Shown here in pieces: positions 15,317 to 26,080 of a stretch of DNA of 57,603 nucleotides. Position 1 is the stretch's first letter. Each line of letters starts with the position of its first letter. The stretch spans positions 1-57,603 of the forward strand of contig SLQV01000077.1 in the NCBI GenBank assembly GCA_007131285.1, written 5' to 3'. The notes under the pieces are model-generated. The model was not told where the DNA came from. It did not search any database and saw only the letters and a program-made list of their open reading frames with translations. Position numbers and translations under genes: made by a program. Source of the DNA: Myxococcales bacterium (GTDB lineage Bacteria; Myxococcota_A; Polyangia; Polyangiales; SLQV01).

Positions 15317-16051
15317 TCAGCTTCCGGCGGAGCGCCAGCGCACATAGCCGACGAAGAACGGCCCCATCTGTGCGATGAACTCGGAAGTCTGACGGGTGTG
15401 GCGCATGGTCTGCACGACATGAGACAGCGGATGCAGATCTTTGCCGATAAGCCCGATCACGAACTCGTTATCTCTCGCGTCAATTCCGTGACACGCTAGG
15501 CGAACGTCGGTCGCCAGGTTTTGTGCGCCGTAGGCTCGGCCAATAATGCCGTGTTCCATCAAGATTTTGCCCTGCTCCGCCTTATCTAGCTTTTCGAAAG
15601 CCCCGTGCCTGCGAAGCGGATACCAGACAGCCCAGGGCGCCTCCTCCTTGAGCACAGTCTCGATGGGCCGGTCGAGAATCGTCCAGGGCAAGTTCGGCTC
15701 GTGACCCGAACCGTAACTGCGGCCGATCATCGTGAAATCTGGTCGCAACCTGGCTTTCGTGCCGAGTGCCTGCCGGACGCAAGGCCGAACTTGACGAACG
15801 AAGTGGCTCGGGTCGAGCGACCAGGTCAGAACCGCAAAGCTCTCCGGATCATTGACATCGTCGTACACAACGCCCGCTAGACCGGCGTCCTCAAAGGCGG
15901 ACGCAAGGTCAGCAGCGCAACTGTGTGTGCCTGGCGCCTGCTCGCGGAATACGAGCAGCTGCATGAACAGCCGTTGGTTGATGGACTGGCGCTCGCCATC
16001 GCGGCTGGCGCCGTGCTCCAATACATCGATGGTCGGCAGCTCATGGTGCAT
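15317..16051 (-). CDS. Chlorite dismutase/HemQ-family protein
   Basis: AWYPLRRHGAFEKLDKAEQGKILMEHGIIGRAYG...GIDARDNEFVIGLIGKDLHPLSHVVQTMRHTRQTSEFIAQMGPFFVGYV. Confidence 0.8.
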   Translation of the reverse strand: MHHELPTIDVLEHGASRDGERQSINQRLFMQLLVFREQAPGTHSCAADLASAFEDAGLAGVVYDDVNDPESFAVLTWSLDPSHFVRQVRPCVRQALGTKARLRPDFTMIGRSYGSGHEPNLPWTILDRPIETVLKEEAPWAVWYPLRRHGAFEKLDKAEQGKILMEHGIIGRAYGAQNLATDVRLACHGIDARDNEFVIGLIGKDLHPLSHVVQTMRHTRQTSEFIAQMGPFFVGYVRWRSAGS

Positions 16052-16167: not shown

Positions 16168-17388
16168 CTAAGCGATGACTTTAAAGGCTTTGCCGTATTG
16201 AATCAGTAGCTTGACTGCACGATCGATATCTTCCTCGCTATGCCCCAGGGTCACATTGAGACGCAGCCGTTCTTCGCCCTGCTTAACGCCAGGGTAGGTA
16301 ATCGGCACCATCATGATGCCGTGTTCGAGCAAAGCTACGTGCAAGAAAAGCGCCTTACGCTCATCACGCACCATGATCGGCATGATGTGCGTATTGCTCT
16401 GAGCAAGGTCAAATCCCGCAGCGAGTAGTCGGCTGCGCATGTAATCCGCACGCGATTGAAGCGCATTCACCAAAGCTGGCCCCTCTGCTTCAAGCATGCC
16501 CAAGATCGTATCGGCGGCGGCAATTAGCGGGGCCGGCAAGCTAGCGCTGAAGAGAAAGGAGCGAGCGCTATGCTTGACGTGGTCAACCACCTGCTCGGAA
16601 CCGAGCAAGATACCGCCTATTCCACCGAACGTCTTTGAGAAGGTGGAGATAACGACGGGCACGCGGCCTTGCAGACCGTACTTTTCAAGAATGCCTCGCC
16701 CACCATGCCCCAGCGTGCCCGTTCCGTGAGCGTCGTCGCAAAGCACAGCTGCGCCGTATGCGTCGCAAACATCGAGTAGCTCCTCGAGGTTAGCTTCATC
16801 GCCGTCTAGCGAGTAGATGCCTTCCAGCAGAACCAAGGCATTTTTGCGCTCTTTTGTGCGCAGGCAGCGCGCGAGCGACTTGGGGCTGTTGTGGTTAAAA
16901 AAACGCAGTTCTGCTTGAGAACCCGGCGTGCCTGCGGCCATAAATGAACCGTCGAGAATGCACGCGTGACTGTAACTATCCAGTATAAGCGAGGTGTCTC
17001 GGTCGGCGAGCGCCATGATGGTTCCCACCATGGCTTGATAGCCCGTCGTAAATACGAGACAGCGCTCGAAACCAAACCACGCAGCCAAGCGCCGCTCCAG
17101 GGCAACGTGGGCATCGGTCGTGGCCTGCACCCGTGACGAACCCAGACCCGTACCATATCGGTCAATAGCCGACTTAGCCGCTTCTCGGACAGCAGGGTGA
17201 TTGGTTAGCCCGAGGTAGTCATTTGAGGAGAAATTGACGACGGGCTTGCCCGCAATCGTGGTGTGGAGCCCTCCGCTCTCAAACTCGCGAAAATAGGGGT
17301 AGACTTGGCGACTTTGAGCCTCACGGACCCGCTCGAGAGCCGATTGCGCTTTCTCCTCAATCCACAACATCGGCGCGCAGCCTAGCAC
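16168..17388 (-). CDS. Alpha-oxoamine synthase, PLP-dependent (SPT/KBL/BioF family)
   Basis: NFSSNDYLGLTNHP, GTGLGSSRVQATTDAHVALERRLA, VLLEGIYSLDGD, DDAHGTGTLG, STFSKTFGGIGG (PLP lysine). Confidence 0.92.
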   Translation of the reverse strand: MLGCAPMLWIEEKAQSALERVREAQSRQVYPYFREFESGGLHTTIAGKPVVNFSSNDYLGLTNHPAVREAAKSAIDRYGTGLGSSRVQATTDAHVALERRLAAWFGFERCLVFTTGYQAMVGTIMALADRDTSLILDSYSHACILDGSFMAAGTPGSQAELRFFNHNSPKSLARCLRTKERKNALVLLEGIYSLDGDEANLEELLDVCDAYGAAVLCDDAHGTGTLGHGGRGILEKYGLQGRVPVVISTFSKTFGGIGGILLGSEQVVDHVKHSARSFLFSASLPAPLIAAADTILGMLEAEGPALVNALQSRADYMRSRLLAAGFDLAQSNTHIMPIMVRDERKALFLHVALLEHGIMMVPITYPGVKQGEERLRLNVTLGHSEEDIDRAVKLLIQYGKAFKVIA

Positions 17389-17514
17389 GCAACGCGGCGC
17401 GCACGGCTTTTGAATGACGTGATGGCGAGCGCTCCGGCTGTCGACAGGTAGAAACAGGGGTGAGTGCGGCGGGGCACAGGCGCAGGAAGTGCCTACTTTG
17501 AGCTGAGCTAATCG

Positions 17515-18870
17515 CTAGGTTGCCCCCGGAGAACGCAAAAGCGTTGCCGCCGCCAAGCCCTGAATATCCATTGAGACGATCAGGATGACATCGGGCGCGT
17601 CCCGCTCAACGCTACCGCGCCCCGCCCCACCGGTTTCAGCGCCCCCCTCTCGCGGCACGCTCGCTTCAGAGAGAGGCGGCGCCTGCCAGCTGCCGCCCGC
17701 AAACAAAGAGAGCGCTACGAGCCAGTTAAATCCGGCGCTGACCGCAAAGCATTCACCCCACACGGCACCGGGGACACACACCCGGGCACCGCGACCTAGA
17801 ACCGCGCGCACCGCACGCAGCTCCGCGGCGAAGACCGCCCCTTCGGTGAGACTACCACCGAGCAGCACGACATCGACGTCATGAGGCGCGATCGCAGCCT
17901 CGGCCAACGCTGCGGCAATGGCTCGTTCCAACGCCCGTTCCGGGTACACCATACGCCGCGAATGGCCTGGGCTTTCGAAACGCAGCGCCGTAGCCAAATG
18001 AAAACCGAGCGCTGGAACCTCGGCGCCGCATACGCGTGCGCCCGCCTCAGGGCCTTCGTCTTGGCTTAGCGCTAAAAAGACCGAACCTTCGCCGTAGCGC
18101 TCGGGAAACCCCGAAAGACTCAGTGCTTTAGCGCGTGCGGCTTGTGCATCCAGCGCCTGGCACATGCCAAGCGATAGGGTCTCGGAAACGCCGACGAGCA
18201 TGCAATCCGCCTCGCCGGCGCTGAGCTTGCGCGCCGCATGCGTCAATGCACTTGCGCCCGAGCAGCGGCCATCGACGGCAGTAATGTTCGGACCGCTCAA
18301 ACCATACCAAATGGCGACTTGACCCGCGGCAGCATTGGCAACCGTATTCGGAAAGCGATTCGGATTAATGAACCGGGGCTCCTCCATTTCGGCTACCCGA
18401 TGAAGCTCTTCTATCGATTCGAGCGCGCCAAAGGCACTACCCCAGGCCACACCGAACCGGTCTGGATAACGCGCCGCCAGCTCGCCCAGCCCGGACTCCT
18501 GCAGCGCACCCTGCACAGCGACAAGCGTCAGGCGGGTCAGACGATCGAATGTGCGCAAGCCCTTGGATCCAAGGAAAGGTTCGGCGCGAAAGCCCCAAAG
18601 CAAGTGCGGCTCAATATGCTCAAATAGTGCACCCGCGAAGGCGCGGACGTCCCCCAAGGGGGGTGGCGTGGGCGTGATGGCACCCGCCCCATCAGGGACC
18701 AGACCTGGCCATACGCTCTCGCGAGCCGCCAACGCGGGCTCCCCCCCGTCAGGAGCGATCTCTACCGAGAACAGCGGCGCATATTGCCGTTGACTGTCAC
18801 TTAGCCACTGGCTCGGCCGCATACCGGCCCACCCCACCACTCCGAAGCCCAGGATACGCTGCGCGGTCAT
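17515..18870 (-). CDS. Beta-ketoacyl synthase-like protein, degenerate (KS-beta/chain-length-factor-like)
   Basis: Thiolase fold with TAVDGRCSGASALTHAARKLSAGEADCMLVGVSETL; both catalytic His motifs replaced (LLGGSLTEG; VPGAVWGECFAVSAG). Confidence 0.8.
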   Translation of the reverse strand: MTAQRILGFGVVGWAGMRPSQWLSDSQRQYAPLFSVEIAPDGGEPALAARESVWPGLVPDGAGAITPTPPPLGDVRAFAGALFEHIEPHLLWGFRAEPFLGSKGLRTFDRLTRLTLVAVQGALQESGLGELAARYPDRFGVAWGSAFGALESIEELHRVAEMEEPRFINPNRFPNTVANAAAGQVAIWYGLSGPNITAVDGRCSGASALTHAARKLSAGEADCMLVGVSETLSLGMCQALDAQAARAKALSLSGFPERYGEGSVFLALSQDEGPEAGARVCGAEVPALGFHLATALRFESPGHSRRMVYPERALERAIAAALAEAAIAPHDVDVVLLGGSLTEGAVFAAELRAVRAVLGRGARVCVPGAVWGECFAVSAGFNWLVALSLFAGGSWQAPPLSEASVPREGGAETGGAGRGSVERDAPDVILIVSMDIQGLAAATLLRSPGAT

Positions 18871-20201
18871 GGCCTCAGCCCCCCTGAGACGCCCTCGGGC
18901 GCATCGTCCTCGCGAGCACCTTCAGGAACCGCGATGCCAGCCGACGCACTATACCTTCCAGAGGCAGGCGCATCCGGCTGAAGCACGACATCTTCGGCAT
19001 TTATCAGAGGCAAGACCGCATTGTAGCCGCCAAATGCGAGCGAGTTGTTCAGCACGACCCGCAGCCGTGTTGAGTGTGCAGTGCGCTTCAATACGTCGAT
19101 CTCCAAAGCGGGATCCGTTTCTTCGAGGTTCACAGTGCCGGGAACAACACCGGTGCGCAACGCCTGCACGCATGCCACCGCCTCGATCGCGCTGGCAGCG
19201 CCCATGGCGTGTCCAATAGCGCCCTTAAGTGAGGAGACCAGGGGCACATGCGTTCCGAAAACAGCGCGCAAGACCTGCGCCTCGACTGCATCGTTGGCCT
19301 CGGTACCGGTGCCGTGTGCGCAAAAATAATCGACGGCGTCCGGCGCGAGGCCGGTTGCACTCAGAGCACGTAGAAGCGCCGCCCGGCTACCGGCGCCTTC
19401 GGGATGGGGACGCGTAATGTGAAACGCGTCGCATGTGAGCCCAAGCACGCCAAGCTGAGCCAAGGGTTGCCCACCACGACGTACCACGCTCGCGGCGGAT
19501 TCGAGCACAAAGAACGCGGCCCCCTCGCCAATCATTAAGCCTTTGCGCTGGGCATCGAAGGGCTGGCAGCGCTGCGGGGCGATCGCACCTAAACGAGCAA
19601 AGCCTGCATACTGGAGGCGCTCTATGACCTCGCTTGCCCCCGCAATGACAAGGTCAGCGTGCCCCGTGCGTATCAACTCCGCTCCCAGCCCGAGCGCATA
19701 GTTCCCCGCAGCGCAAGCGCCCGGAACGGTATGAATGGGTCCCTCGCACCCCGCGGACCGAGCGACGAGGGCGGGGAGCGTGACCGACCCAAACGGGACG
19801 ACCGCCCCGGGCGCCACGCCGGCTGCGTTCCCGTGGAACCAAGCCCGATGCACTGCACCTAAGCGGTCGCCCTCGCCCATCGACGTGCCCACGACGACCG
19901 CACGACGTTCCGGCGCCGGCGTCTGCGCGTTGGGGTGCCCGGCTTGTTCAAGCGCCTGGCGCGTCGCCGCAAGCGCATAACCCGCGGCCCTTCCGACCTG
20001 CCGTTGCTCACTTCGTGTGAGCCAAGGCTCCCAGGGCACCCCCTTGACCTCGCAGGCCTGATCCCGCTCAATGCCATCGGTCGAAAATCGGGTGACCTGG
20101 CCCTGACCACTTTCGCCTCGGCACAAAGCCTGCCACCAGCTCTCGACATCGCTTCCGAGTGCGCTGACAATCCCCATCCCGGTCACGTAGACCGCTTCCA
20201 T
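18867..20201 (-). CDS. Beta-ketoacyl-ACP synthase (FabF-like) with intact C-H-H triad
   Basis: VPGACAAGNYALGLGAELIRTGHADLVIAG, CAHGTGTEANDAVEA, SLKGAIGHAMGAASAIEA; stop overlaps next start (ATGA). Confidence 0.93.
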   Translation of the reverse strand: MEAVYVTGMGIVSALGSDVESWWQALCRGESGQGQVTRFSTDGIERDQACEVKGVPWEPWLTRSEQRQVGRAAGYALAATRQALEQAGHPNAQTPAPERRAVVVGTSMGEGDRLGAVHRAWFHGNAAGVAPGAVVPFGSVTLPALVARSAGCEGPIHTVPGACAAGNYALGLGAELIRTGHADLVIAGASEVIERLQYAGFARLGAIAPQRCQPFDAQRKGLMIGEGAAFFVLESAASVVRRGGQPLAQLGVLGLTCDAFHITRPHPEGAGSRAALLRALSATGLAPDAVDYFCAHGTGTEANDAVEAQVLRAVFGTHVPLVSSLKGAIGHAMGAASAIEAVACVQALRTGVVPGTVNLEETDPALEIDVLKRTAHSTRLRVVLNNSLAFGGYNAVLPLINAEDVVLQPDAPASGRYSASAGIAVPEGAREDDAPEGVSGGLRP

Positions 20202-20299
20202 CGCACGCCGCTCCTAGTCCGAGCGACCCCAAAAGGCAAGAGCGTGGTCGCGGCTCGCGCCTTGACACTTCACCCTACGGAAACGTAAAGAGCGGCCTC

Positions 20300-22108
20300 A
20301 TGGCGGAAAATCTCGCGACAACGCTGGTGACCGCCCTCCTCGACTTACCCGAGCGGGAGGGGCGAGGCTTTACGTGCGTGAGGCGAGATGGCAGCGAGAA
20401 GTCTCTTTCCTGGCGTGAACTGAAGGCCGCCGCGCGCGCCACCGGAAAAATACTCAAGACGTCACTTGGCGTGGTGCCAGGTGACCGAGTGGTGGTGGTT
20501 CTACCCGAGCCTGATGACTTCGTAGTCGCGTTTTTTGGCTGCGTCCTCGCGGGCGCGGTCCCCGTGCCGCTCGCCAACAAAGCGCCTTTTCGCGCAGCGG
20601 CGGCCTACCGCGATCATCTCGCACATATCTTGCGAGCATCCGGGGCTAAGCTGATCCTTACGGACCGTCAGTGCGCCGAGGCCGCGGAGCTATCGCTTCT
20701 TGACGCGGAACTCGGGCGCGACACGTCTGAGCCGACTTCCCGGTCACCCATGAGCACCGCAGCAACGGCACGCGTGACCGTTGCTGATGTAGACACGCTC
20801 GGCGCACAGTTGGGCCAGATATCCGCTGCGGGCGACTTCGACCAGCCTGCGCTGCCTAGCCCAGACGACCTGTGCTTCCTTCAGTTTACGTCCGGCAGCA
20901 CGTCTGAGCCGAAGGGCGTGAGGGTGTTGCATCGCAATCTCGTCGCGAACGCGCGGGCTTTTTTGGGCCCCGCTGGCCTCGACCGCACCGATGCAGACCT
21001 GGGCTTGAGCTGGCTGCCGCTCTACCACGACATGGGACTGATTGGCTTTGTCCTGGGCCCTGTCATCTGTGATATCTCGGTTGTCTTGATTGCGACCGAA
21101 CGTTTTGCAAAGCTCCCGCGATCCTGGCTGGAGGAGATCAGTGCTCGCGGCGCTACGATCACATTTGCGCCCAACTTTGCGTACCGACTGGTCACGCGGC
21201 GCGTGCGCGAACGAGATCTAGAGCGACTTAACCTCCGCAGCTTGCGCATCGCAGGCTGCGGTGCCGAACCGATTCAGGCTGAAACGCTTGTAAGTTTCGC
21301 TGAACGCTTTGCTCCGTGTGGCTTCAACCCGATAGCATTCGCCCCCTGCTACGGCATGGCCGAAAGCACTCTGGCAATATCGTTCACTCGGCCAAACGAT
21401 CCATTGGCGTTCGAATGGGTTGACACCAAGCAGCTGGCCCAAGGTCAAGCCGTTGTGTCGCAGTCTGCGCAAAGACCCGAAGCAACAACTCCAGGCACCC
21501 ATGTGCAGCCAGTCCAGTCGCAGATCGTCGATTGCGGTCAGCCGTTCCCGGGGCATGAGGTGCATGTCGTGCGAGAGGACGGTGCAGTGGCCGATGAGCG
21601 AGAGGTTGGCGAAGTCTGGGTGCGCGGCCCAAGCGTAGCGGACGGCTACGAGGGGCTCAGTAGCCCGGACACATTCGATCCAGACGGCTGGCTACACACC
21701 GGTGACCTTGGCTATTTCGCTGAGAATCATCTTTTTATCTGTGGACGCCTGAAGGACATGATTATCGTCAATGGATCCAATCATTTCCCTCAAGATATCG
21801 AATGGTTGGTGGCGGGCGTAGAGGGCGTACGGGAAGGCGGCGTCGTGGCCTTCGGGTTGCCGGGAACCCAGGGCGATGAAATCGTTGTGGTTGCCGAAAC
21901 ACGCGCCAGCGACGCCGGGCGCGTGCGCGACGAAGCCGCACGACGTGTGGCTGCGGAGATGGGCGTTCAGCCCTCCGTGGTAGCGGCCGTGCCTCCCGGC
22001 ACAATACCCAAGACATCTAGCGGAAAAATACAACGCAGGCGGACCCGCCAGCTCTATCAAAACGGTGCGCTCTCCGAGCATGGTACCGCGACCGAAACGC
22101 CGAGCTAG
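20300..22108 (+). CDS. Fatty acyl-AMP ligase / acyl-ACP synthetase (FAAL-type)
   Basis: LQFTSGSTSEPKGVRVLHRNLVANARA, SWLPLYHDMGLIGFVLGP, FAPNFAYRLVTRRV, GAEPIQAETL, FAPCYGMAESTL, KTSSGKIQRR. Confidence 0.92.
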   Translation: MAENLATTLVTALLDLPEREGRGFTCVRRDGSEKSLSWRELKAAARATGKILKTSLGVVPGDRVVVVLPEPDDFVVAFFGCVLAGAVPVPLANKAPFRAAAAYRDHLAHILRASGAKLILTDRQCAEAAELSLLDAELGRDTSEPTSRSPMSTAATARVTVADVDTLGAQLGQISAAGDFDQPALPSPDDLCFLQFTSGSTSEPKGVRVLHRNLVANARAFLGPAGLDRTDADLGLSWLPLYHDMGLIGFVLGPVICDISVVLIATERFAKLPRSWLEEISARGATITFAPNFAYRLVTRRVRERDLERLNLRSLRIAGCGAEPIQAETLVSFAERFAPCGFNPIAFAPCYGMAESTLAISFTRPNDPLAFEWVDTKQLAQGQAVVSQSAQRPEATTPGTHVQPVQSQIVDCGQPFPGHEVHVVREDGAVADEREVGEVWVRGPSVADGYEGLSSPDTFDPDGWLHTGDLGYFAENHLFICGRLKDMIIVNGSNHFPQDIEWLVAGVEGVREGGVVAFGLPGTQGDEIVVVAETRASDAGRVRDEAARRVAAEMGVQPSVVAAVPPGTIPKTSSGKIQRRRTRQLYQNGALSEHGTATETPS

Positions 22109-22163
22109 CCGGCCGCGCACCCTCCCTGCGCGCTCACTTTTAGGAGTTATACGCACCGGCCTT

Positions 22164-22494
22164 CCTCAGATAGCTGAGGGTGAATCCGAATCATACTTCG
22201 GCGCCAAAGCCGCCCGATGCCAGCGTGAGAAGCGCTCACGGGTCTCGGCCTAAAGCGAGTCTACCTGCCTCTTGGGGCTCCCCGACCCGTGTATCAAAAC
22301 CCGTCTGACCAGAGGCGCGTTTGACCTGGGTCTGGGCTTAGCGTCAGGCTGGGCTATAGTCGGCGCGCTCGCAGAGGTAAGCCCGGACCATAGACGAAAC
22401 CTCCGCGCTAGGAGGCCTTCCCTTAGGGAACGCGCGAAAGCGCGGTCTGTGGCTTCGACGGGAACGACGTGCCTGGTTTTTACACCAGCCACAG
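22164..22494 (+). ncRNA. Candidate structured RNA / leader upstream of first ACP gene
   Basis: Consecutive stems: 22164-22179, 22186-22201, 22224-22240, 22267-22316, 22329-22389 (12 bp incl. one G.U), 22400-22415, 22418-22430, 22431-22444 (GAAA loop), 22447-22494 (8 bp). Confidence 0.4.
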
Positions 22495-22599
22495 GATACC
22501 CCCTTATCGAGCAACCTAGTAAACGGCCTCGACGAACGACCGCCGTACCCCGACAGAACGCAAACGCCCGAGCGCTGATCCGGGCGCCGCAGGAGGCCG

Positions 22600-22854
22600 A
22601 TGGACACCGACGAACTTTTGATACTCTTCCGAGAACTCGCCAGCGAGATCGCCGAAAAGGACTGCTCGAGCATTCCGGCCGACGCGCAGGTAACGCAGCT
22701 GGGGATCGACTCCCTCGGTTTGATGGAACTTGTGGGTACGCTTGAGCGTGAGCTTGCGATCCGGCTTCCGGAGGCGGAGCTTGCGGAAGTTCGCACCGTC
22801 AACGACCTTTTGCGCGTCGCGGCACAGCAACTTAAGGAGCGCCGCACGGGCTAA
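22600..22854 (+). CDS. Acyl carrier protein
   Basis: 84 aa; TQLGIDSLGLMELVGTLERELAIRLPEAEL phosphopantetheine Ser motif. Confidence 0.9.
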   Translation: MDTDELLILFRELASEIAEKDCSSIPADAQVTQLGIDSLGLMELVGTLERELAIRLPEAELAEVRTVNDLLRVAAQQLKERRTG

Positions 22855-22961
22855 ACGCCAGAGGCTTCGAGCGCTACCCGAAAAACCGTTAAGCATTTGA
22901 CATAAAACGTCTTTCCTGCGATTTACAGGCAAGCTGACTCCGAGCGGAGGCCGACGTAAAT

Positions 22962-23157
22962 GGGCGCGAGACTGGCGCCCTCGAGTCTATACCCGTACCC
23001 TTAGAGCCGGCGAGACCGAAGCCGACAGGCCGATGACGGGTCGACTTGCAACGGTGTGGCCGCCAGCGGCGTAGAACCTGCAAGGGAGTCCTTGAGGCCC
23101 GGTGGCGAAGGAGCAGGTCGTCACCGAGCGAACGTAGCCGCAGGCTCTTGCCAGCGG
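22962..23157 (+). ncRNA. Candidate structured RNA / leader upstream of second ACP gene
   Basis: Stems: 22962-22980 (GGGCGC/GCGCCC), 22991-22996/23036-23041, 23045-23084 (CTTGCA/TGCAAG with inner GCCG/CGGC), 23100-23126 (8 bp, one G.U), 23138-23157. Confidence 0.3.
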
Positions 23158-23209
23158 GGTGACTTTTAGATTGAAGGCCGTGGTCAAGCCGAAGTGACGA
23201 GGATACAGA

Positions 23210-23446
23210 ATGGATATCAACGAGCTTCGCGAAGAAATCCGTCAGATTATCGCTGAGGTAAGCGAGGTGGACATCATTCCCGACGCCACCTCGTTCGGCG
23301 AGCTTGGAATCGACAGCATGATGGCGATTGAGATCGTTGCCGAGGTGGAGCGCAAGTACAAGCTTTCTATCCCCGAAGACGAGCTTCAAGAGCTCACGGA
23401 TCTGGACCGCGTCGTCGAAAAGGTAACCTCGCGCATCGCAGCCTAG
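23210..23446 (+). CDS. Acyl carrier protein
   Basis: 78 aa; SFGELGIDSMMAIEIVAEVERKYKLSIPEDEL. Confidence 0.93.
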   Translation: MDINELREEIRQIIAEVSEVDIIPDATSFGELGIDSMMAIEIVAEVERKYKLSIPEDELQELTDLDRVVEKVTSRIAA

Positions 23447-23503: not shown

Positions 23504-24259
23504 TTAGCGTTCGATACGCACCGCTTCGACGCGGCGCAGCTCGACCGCTTGTTCACGCGTTAAGGCCACGTAAACAGGCAAACCCGTATCTTCTACGGCT
23601 AAACGGAGGAAGCGCCGCTCGTGACGACAGGCAGCAAGATACCGGTTGAGGGTTGCGATAAGCTGGATGAGAGACACCTCATAATCTTCGGGCTGTTTAG
23701 CTGAATCGGACGTTCGGGGAACGGTCGCATGCCAGCTATCGGCCAACAAAACGACCTGCCCCCCTGGTTCGATCCAAGCGACATCTAGCCCAGCCAGAGG
23801 CATTGCAAATCCCCTGAGGTGATTGATGCACTGCGCTAGAGTTCCGCAGGCCGCTTCTTTCTCGATAACCAGCGCCCGGTCCGCTAGTTGGCGCGTCAAC
23901 GCCACGCTTGCACCAGGGTCATCCTCGGCCAGGTAATAGGTGCGCAGCAGATCGTCCTGCGTGTCCTCCGCGCCGGGATTTGCAAGGGCCGCGCACAGCG
24001 CGTCAAACCGTTCGTCAGGCAGCGCCGCCAGGAGTCCCGCGGCGCGCAGCGCGCGCGCGTACACCACGCGCCGACTTAACCTTTCCGAGAAGCCATCGGC
24101 CGGGTAATCGTCCACCGAATGCCGCGCGGCCTCCAACTGATCATGCGACGAGAGCACGGCCGATGCCGGTGGATCGGGTGGCTGGGAAGCCTCGGACGGT
24201 GGCGACGGAAAAGACACGGCGTTGCCTACAGGATGCCTGACCTTGTGACGTCGACGCAA
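23504..24259 (-). CDS. Hypothetical protein
   Basis: 251 aa ORF with coding-like composition; no recognised motif; N-terminus overlaps divergent hflX ORF so start uncertain. Confidence 0.55.
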   Translation of the reverse strand: MRRRHKVRHPVGNAVSFPSPPSEASQPPDPPASAVLSSHDQLEAARHSVDDYPADGFSERLSRRVVYARALRAAGLLAALPDERFDALCAALANPGAEDTQDDLLRTYYLAEDDPGASVALTRQLADRALVIEKEAACGTLAQCINHLRGFAMPLAGLDVAWIEPGGQVVLLADSWHATVPRTSDSAKQPEDYEVSLIQLIATLNRYLAACRHERRFLRLAVEDTGLPVYVALTREQAVELRRVEAVRIER

Positions 24260-26080
24260 CGAGGGAGTTCAACCGCAGCGCTGAGCCTCCGTCCCGTCGC
24301 CGACGCAGCCTTGCTTTGCCGCAGACAAGGCACCATCCTGCGGGATCACGTGACGTTACATGGTCATCTTCAGGGACTGGCTCCTTCCGAAACGAAGCTC
24401 CTTGAGCGGCTCTATCGGCGGAAGGTGCCCACCCAATCGCTTTTCCCGACGGAGCTTGCGCGACCGCTCTGCGATATTTCTCACCAAATACGGCGTCAGG
24501 TCGGACTCTTGGTAGACCGTAGCGGAACGGTTACCCACGTCATCGTCGGTGACAGCACCAAACTTTTCATCCCGGATCTCGGCCGCGTCCGCGCGGGTGC
24601 CAGCCGCTTTCGCGGCCTTCGTCTGCTCCACACCCATCTCCATCAAGAGCCGATCAGCCGAGACGATCTTGTCGACCTGACCCGGCTTCGCCTTGACTTA
24701 GTAGCGGCGCTGCTTGTCGCAACCGATGGATTGCCCTTTCGCGTCTACTACGCGCACAACGTCCCCAATCGCGAGGGCCTTCCGTACGTTACTGTCGGCC
24801 CGATACCCTTCAGCCACCTCGACCTCGATGTTGGCCTTCTGATTCGGGAGCTCGAGACGGACTTTGCGCGTGAGGCAAAGCGCTATCCCCGCAGGACGCC
24901 GGAGGGCCGGGCGATTCTCGTCCACGTGTCGAATAAGCGCGATGCACATGAGACCGAGGCGTCTCTCATCGAACTTAAGGAACTGGCGCGGACAGCCGGC
25001 CTGGAAGTCGTGGACACTATCACACAGGTGCGACCACAGGTTGACCCTCGTTATGTGGTCGGCCGAGGCAAGCTAGATGACATTACCCTGCGCGCAATGC
25101 AGCTCGACGCTGATGTCCTGGTCATTGATCGTGAAGTCAGCGCGGCCCAGAGCACTGCTCTCGCCGAGGTTTCCGAACTCAAAATAATTGACCGTACCCA
25201 GCTCATTCTCGACATCTTTGCCATGCGCGCCGAGAGTCGCGTCGGCAAGGTCCAGGTCGAGCTCGCCCAGATGAAGTACCTGCTTCCGCGCCTCGGAACG
25301 CGGGATGACGCGCTTTCGCGACTGACCGGCGGCATTGGCGGGCGCGGCCCAGGCGAAACCAAGCTAGAGATAGGGCGGCGGAGGGCGCGCGAACGGGTAC
25401 ATCGGCTCGAAGCCGAGCTGAAAACTCTCGCCAAGACGCGACGACAAATGCGGGGGCGGCGCCGGCGACGCGAGGTGCCCCACATTGCCATCGTGGGCTA
25501 CACAAACGCGGGCAAGAGCACGTTGCTCAATACGCTTACGCAGGCAGATGTGTTGGCAGAAGACAAACTCTTTGCAACGCTGGACCCACGTTCGAAACGC
25601 CTCAGACTACCAAGAGAGCGCGAGGTCGTTATTTCAGATACCGTGGGCTTCATTCGACACTTGCCGAAAGACTTATTCGGGGCTTTTCGGTCCACCTTTG
25701 AAGCTGCTCAGGAAGCTACTTTATTGCTGGAGGTGATCGACGCCTCTGATCCGGAGCTTGAGACCTACGTCACGACCACCGCCAAGTTATTGACCGAGCT
25801 TGAACTCGACCACGTTGAAAAACTGACCGTCTACAACAAAGCGGACAAACTGAGCGAGGCTCAGCGCGAAGGACTGCGCACGCGGGGACTGGTTGTCTCA
25901 GCGCCCGACCCGGCGACCCTGAGACCCCTGCTCGAAGCCATGGAAGCCTGCCTAGACATCGCGTTGACCGCCAGCGATGCCTCTGCGAACAGCACTGCTA
26001 TCGCGGAGGAGGATGCCATTGACCGCGAGCCGCCAGACTACGGCACGCGAGACAACGCAGCCGCAGATGGCTTAGGGTAA
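24233..26080 (+). CDS. hflX: GTPase HflX (with long N-terminal extension)
   Basis: [71 protein letters not shown] 24233 used rather than 24119. Confidence 0.93.

Follow-up and report, generated by a model that had tools for sequence, protein, structure and literature searches.

A fatty acyl-AMP ligase (FAAL), an acyl carrier protein (ACP), and a serine palmitoyltransferase (SPT) work together as functional partners in both Caulobacter and E. coli BL21 (PMC9386255). The ACP-dependent SPT system of Rhodobacteria is encoded by CC_1162-1165/CC_1154 in Caulobacter and by spt-acpR-cerR-aasR together with yghO in E. coli BL21 (PMC9386255, PMC11324152). Operons of acpR-aasR, which pair an ACP with a FAAL and were described as AcpR/AasR homologues, have also been reported in Myxococcus, Stigmatella, and Sorangium, in a genomic context that differs from that of Rhodobacteria (PMC9386255). 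In Pseudomonas fluorescens MYb115, sphingolipids are made by PfSgaAB, a type I polyketide synthase (PKS) with an alpha-oxoamine synthase (AOS) (PMC12134224). In our estimation, the locus described here probably serves as the front end of a pathway to ceramide-type sphingolipids, and its AOS would stand in for canonical SPT in most of one Myxococcota order.

The window, that is, the whole stretch of 57,603 nucleotides that was analyzed, is an entire contig from a draft genome of 3.1 Mb with a completeness of 91%. All six genes that an earlier note on this DNA had described were present on the strands it gave and at nearly the same coordinates (Table 1). They include the ketosynthase (KS) gene and the gene of its KS-like, chain-length-factor-like partner (CLF), which share 4 bases (tcat on the plus strand, the ATGA overlap of the note), and the divergent FAAL and two ACPs with GIDS(L/M) sites, of which the carrier Ser is conserved in the alignment. 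A gap of 126 bp separates the KS-like gene from the AOS gene downstream, which had been placed at 16168-17388; alignment with 22 orthologues puts its first codon at the ATG of position 17370 (M-x-W-I) and not at the GTG of position 17388. The AOS is not accompanied by a multidomain type I PKS; the cluster is composed only of discrete KS, CLF, ACPs, and FAAL and contains no KR, DH, or ER gene. An Rfam search of the window returned zero RNA families.

Table 1. Positions and characteristics of the six cluster genes in the window
Gene product	Position	Strand	Characteristics
AOS, PLP-dependent alpha-oxoamine synthase, 400 aa	16168..17370	-	SPT-like sister clade; SSR-VQATT loop; PLP Lys in STFSK
KS-like partner, chain-length-factor-like (CLF)	17515..18870	-	catalytic Cys/His gone: Cys->Arg, His->Glu
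FabF-like ketosynthase (KS)	18867..20201	-	C163/H296/K326/H331 intact
Fatty acyl-AMP ligase (FAAL), 602 aa	20300..22108	+	37% identity to E. coli BL21 AasR; catalytic Lys576
Acyl carrier protein ACP1	22600..22854	+	GIDSL; co-travels with KS/CLF
Acyl carrier protein ACP2	23210..23446	+	GIDSM; occurs with KS/CLF, also with AOS alone

With the NCBIfam models, the AOS scored 327 bits for bioF, 320 bits for SPT, and 293 bits for Kbl, each under its cut-off (426 bits for bioF and 640 bits for the SPT equivalog, a value that the Polyangiaceae SPT-like genes also miss with 450-458 bits). The top score for bioF, slightly above that for SPT, would fit an enzyme of biotin (BioF) or threonine (Kbl) metabolism that happens to lie beside unrelated lipid genes. 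However, AU tests rejected the grouping of the AOS with BioF (p = 3.6e-47) and with Kbl (p = 4e-6), a BioF-like gene is found at a separate site in the window's genome (C107), and the relatives have Kbl as a distinct gene, located next to tdh in those inspected. Both assignments were rejected on these grounds, and this explanation has next to no probability. In the phylogenetic analysis that the earlier note had called for, which excluded the BioF row L106 (implausibly long and probably a wrong reading), the AOS formed its own clade with a support of 100/100, grouped with a homologue of 41% identity (L132) and with the AOS of the PKS-like locus L089. Together they were sister to the clade of known SPTs (96/89) rather than inside it, and outside Kbl, BioF, and ALAS. 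The PKS-AOS proteins from a Pseudomonas plasmid and from an S. meliloti locus, which we take to be RkpG-like, branch outside the window's AOS clade. Neither of the two outcomes that the note had named as speaking against its reading, an AOS within BioF or Kbl and a lack of conserved linkage of the KS, FAAL, and ACP genes, was obtained.

The AOS is 34% identical to E. coli SPT. Residues K252, H141, D218/D219, H221, and R376 (P0001 numbering) are invariant in 23 sequences and, as in SPT, make up the active-site set of an alpha-oxoamine synthase, with the PLP Lys, the stacking His, the DDAH, and the Arg. The best Foldseek match of the predicted structure is the Sphingobacterium SPT (TM 0.94), in a fold common to all AOS. 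Judged by sequence, the AOS is a divergent SPT-like lineage, sister to canonical SPT. In its clade, the loop SSR-VQATT replaces NGT with the loss of one residue, a change private to the clade, and the C-terminal motif YPGVKxGEERLR is nearer to Kbl and ALAS than to SPT. This loop and this motif leave room for other amino-acid and acyl specificities than those of SPT and so count against the reading that we prefer; the most likely amino-acid substrate is serine.

The neighborhood was compared in 40 loci of relatives, all picked by CLF match, two of them from outside the order and without the cluster. An AOS-CLF-KS set diverging from ACP1-ACP2 is kept in most of the 40 loci, with the FAAL between them in about half, and this divergent layout is found in several families within a single order of Myxococcota, apparently Polyangiales, in keeping with the linkage that the note had asked to be checked. 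Since the layout recurs in most of these loci, the arrangement of the cluster is far beyond chance. Identity among the relatives is 62-73% for the AOS and only about 30-44% for the CLF. The relatives that were found through the AOS are mostly Myxococcota-type records (Myxococcales, Sandaracinaceae, and Polyangiaceae). Among the matches listed (80 loci), AOS orthologues of at least 63% identity come from Myxococcota-type or unassigned records only, and none of the next matches, at 41% or below, has KS/CLF/ACP neighbors, so an occurrence of the cluster outside Myxococcota was rejected for the matches listed. A second cluster type was observed in the same order at L089 (G393:C139:22500-33500) and L205, where the AOS shares 47% identity with that of the window. 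Near it are a gene of ACP size and one resembling HMG-CoA synthase (beta-branching), and a homologue of bCerS lies at a distance of about 11 kb; this cluster has the look of a PKS-type pathway to a sphingoid or amino-ketone.

The other flanking genes were rejected as members of the pathway, as those identified, among them a class I tRNA synthetase, ThiG, ThiE, aroC, a HemQ-like protein, and kinases, are mostly housekeeping or regulatory and differ between families. The rest of the window, where annotated, is likewise largely housekeeping, including a split division/cell-wall cluster, aroC, and HflX. The HflX GTPase (24119-26080) is extended at its N-terminus by about 260 residues, and the HemQ/chlorite-dismutase-like protein (15317-16051) matches only in its C-terminal half; three relatives (L050, L068, and L075) likewise have the HemQ-like gene and aroC at the flank of their cluster. 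The protein at 3316-5136 matches Stig1 (PF04885), a family named after a plant stigma protein.

The KS has the residues expected of a condensing enzyme: in the alignment, His296, Lys326, and His331 are invariant in 33/33 rows and Cys163 is present in 32 of the 33, the remaining row having a gap. In the KS-like partner, substitutions affect the active-site Cys as well as both His; the Cys position is occupied by N, R, P, or H and the second His is always Glu (38 aligned rows), the window's protein having Arg at the Cys position when aligned against the FabF C163Q structure. With the Cys replaced and the second His always Glu, this partner is therefore very likely non-catalytic. A catalytic Cys-His-His KS next to a partner without Cys is the arrangement of a type II KS/CLF, and on these residues the pair is predicted to be one catalytic KS with a chain-length-factor-like partner and not two condensing enzymes. 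The KS/KS-like pair of the note thus stands, but its second member cannot be counted as a condensing enzyme. The partner's predicted structure (mean pLDDT 70) matches both the folds of FabF-type KS and the CLFs of actinorhodin and ishigamide synthesis. PDB 9s5h, which with 9s5i represents a solved KS complex, provides the best sequence match to the KS with chain B and the best match to the CLF profile with chain C.

The FAAL is locally the least fixed member of the cluster: about half of the clusters lack it beside their ACPs. Several genomes without a local FAAL encode a homologue elsewhere, and the carrier Ser of the ACPs and the catalytic Lys of the FAAL are conserved among the relatives. 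As in the ACP-dependent ceramide pathway, a dedicated ACP and a FAAL-type ligase are linked here. The loading of the ACPs by the FAAL that the note had put forward is supported, with the change that the FAAL is not fixed at the locus. A 4HBT thioesterase family adjoins ACP2 in about 10 clusters (e.g., L054:5142-5510; one member was tested against Pfam), possibly for proofreading or release, and none was identified within the window. At L063 (f5 genome), a fatty acid desaturase gene (PF03405; 12442-13269) lies between ACP1 and ACP2, and L072 has a similarly sized gene at the same spot.

It could also be that the KS/CLF, FAAL, and ACPs make a separate lipid and that the AOS is only a stable neighbor, acting as an independent SPT on ordinary acyl-ACP or acyl-CoA. 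This would agree with four minimal loci (L114, L117, L128, and L206), in which the AOS is divergent from ACP2, with an SDR nearby and no KS/CLF, and with genomes in which the AOS and KS/CLF are on different contigs (G261, G275, G161, G237, and G328), the KS/CLF/ACPs being kept as a unit in some relatives. (The SDR was rejected as CerR proper at L114 and L206, with only 26-28% identity.) However, the linkage recurs over several families while the neighboring genes change, a FAAL homologue is present in most AOS-carrying genomes and in few SPT-type genomes, and ACP2 is the element common to both kinds of split locus, AOS without KS/CLF and KS/CLF without AOS. We infer from the last observation that ACP2 would deliver the acyl chain to the AOS, and we consider a separate lipid quite improbable. 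For the front-end reading that we prefer, the same split loci imply that the KS/CLF may be a modifier or a neighbor. Whether it would extend the chain, build it de novo, or set its length is the step of which we are least sure, because the AOS persists without KS/CLF in some lineages.

The distribution of the AOS was compared with that of SPT in 67 genomes of the order. The AOS is present at an identity of at least 62% in 53 of them, a 37-40% homologue is found instead in 11, and none has both; the three genomes outside this count are two incomplete ones and G001, in which the AOS is cut by the contig end yet clearly present. Four of the 11 homologues were placed in the tree, all four inside the SPT clade, and two, scored with the NCBIfam SPT model, gave 450 and 458 bits. 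No more than a few events in the history of the lineages may lie behind this exclusivity.

The earlier note had pointed to the lack of a ceramide synthase (bCerS) and a CerR-like reductase beside the cluster and suggested that the product may differ from ordinary ceramide. We used the annotated genes of E. coli BL21 (yghO, FAAL, epimerase, ACP, and spt; roles according to PMC9386255) as the reference. Neither a bCerS nor a CerR homologue lies anywhere in the window, but the window's genome encodes both, a YghO/bCerS homologue at C187:581-1699 (E 2e-138) and one clear CerR at C41:1276-2253 (381 bits vs 92 for the next SDR), the latter on a contig different from that of the cluster and thus outside the operon. 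The absence noted beside the cluster is correct, and the non-ceramide product drawn from it does not follow; an ordinary ceramide-type end product is therefore the likelier reading. The bCerS family is found in 64 of the 67 genomes, including the window's, with 39-41% identity to E. coli YghO in its Polyangiaceae members, and bCerS is near a CerR in four cluster-bearing genomes. Since canonical-SPT genomes also carry bCerS, bCerS alone is no proof of the AOS product. On homology, the genome encodes candidate parts for the whole route from acyl-ACP via a 3-keto-base to ceramide.

A different amino-ketone lipid or signaling molecule, made with alanine, glycine, or cysteate or from a chain left beta-oxidised by the KS/CLF, and no ceramide precursor, would be compatible with the private loop and the Kbl/ALAS-like motif of the AOS, with a cluster that lacks bCerS and CerR, with the desaturase or thioesterase genes by some clusters, and with the resemblance of the related L089/L205 locus to secondary metabolism. 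We regard such a product as unlikely, considering that bCerS and CerR are encoded in the window's genome and most relatives, that bCerS adjoins the AOS in G261 (L204), and that an AOS widespread in the order and exclusive with SPT is unlike a typical accessory metabolite gene.

In the ceramide-type pathway that we favor, the dedicated ACPs would carry the acyl chain, and the FAAL could charge an ACP with a free fatty acid. The KS/CLF heterodimer would extend or build the chain via decarboxylative condensation, with beta-carbon processing presumably by housekeeping FAS enzymes, because there is no KR, DH, or ER in the cluster. From ACP2, the completed acyl thioester would then pass to the AOS, to be condensed with an amino acid under release of CO2 to a 3-keto-sphingoid base. 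Ceramide would be made by an N-acyltransferase of the bCerS (YghO) type and a reductase of the CerR type, whose genes are at other sites of the genome. We infer every chemical step, the ACP2-AOS pairing, serine, and the chain structure from gene content and homology. The amino-ketone (sphingoid-type) pathway of the note is supported, including an AOS close to SPT, the loading of ACPs by the FAAL, and a KS pair; the interpretation of the note as a whole is supported in part. The further idea that the KS/CLF is a dedicated sphingoid chain builder acting on ACP1, then ACP2, then a third SPT-like lineage, and that this hybrid replaced canonical SPT across most of the order, is plausible, and we would lean slightly against it.

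Genome surveys recognize producers of sphingolipids by SPT similarity cut-offs, and a divergent SPT-like clade that has a carrier and a KS/CLF front end of its own could therefore be missed or called BioF or Kbl, so that the sphingolipid capacity in Myxococcota may be under-counted. If our interpretation is true, the locus would represent the type II equivalent of a sphingolipid route by type I PKS that was described recently (PMC12134224), a possible home for ACP-FAAL pairs such as those reported from myxobacteria (PMC9386255), and a case, open to testing, in which one lipid pathway replaces another inside one order.

Like the ACP-dependent SPT system of Rhodobacteria, the window's genome combines an SPT-like AOS with a dedicated ACP, a FAAL-type acyl-ACP synthetase, and genomic bCerS and CerR; unlike it, the locus has a KS/CLF and a second ACP, its AOS is in a sister clade, and cerR is outside the operon. 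The myxobacterial acpR-aasR operons come from the same phylum and share the ACP and FAAL pair, whereas here the pair is in one locus with a KS/CLF and a different AOS. A ketosynthase-built chain passed to an AOS, as proposed here, is also a feature of PfSgaAB and of the rhizobial RkpA/RkpG-like PKS-AOS, but in contrast to PfSgaAB, the window locus encodes separate type II proteins and not a multidomain type I PKS. A catalytic KS with an adjacently encoded inactive partner is shared with the type II KS/CLF pairs (actinorhodin, 1tqy; ishigamide, 6kxd; PDB 9s5h B/C), which differ from the present one, with its N/R/P/H at the Cys position of the CLF, its AOS partner, and its lack of KR/DH/ARO genes. 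We did not find a cluster of type II KS/CLF, FAAL, and two ACPs around a separate SPT-like clade in the open-licence papers that were searched. ACP-dependent SPT and type I PKS-AOS systems are already known, and what seems new is the type II KS/CLF, FAAL, and two-ACP front end on a divergent SPT.
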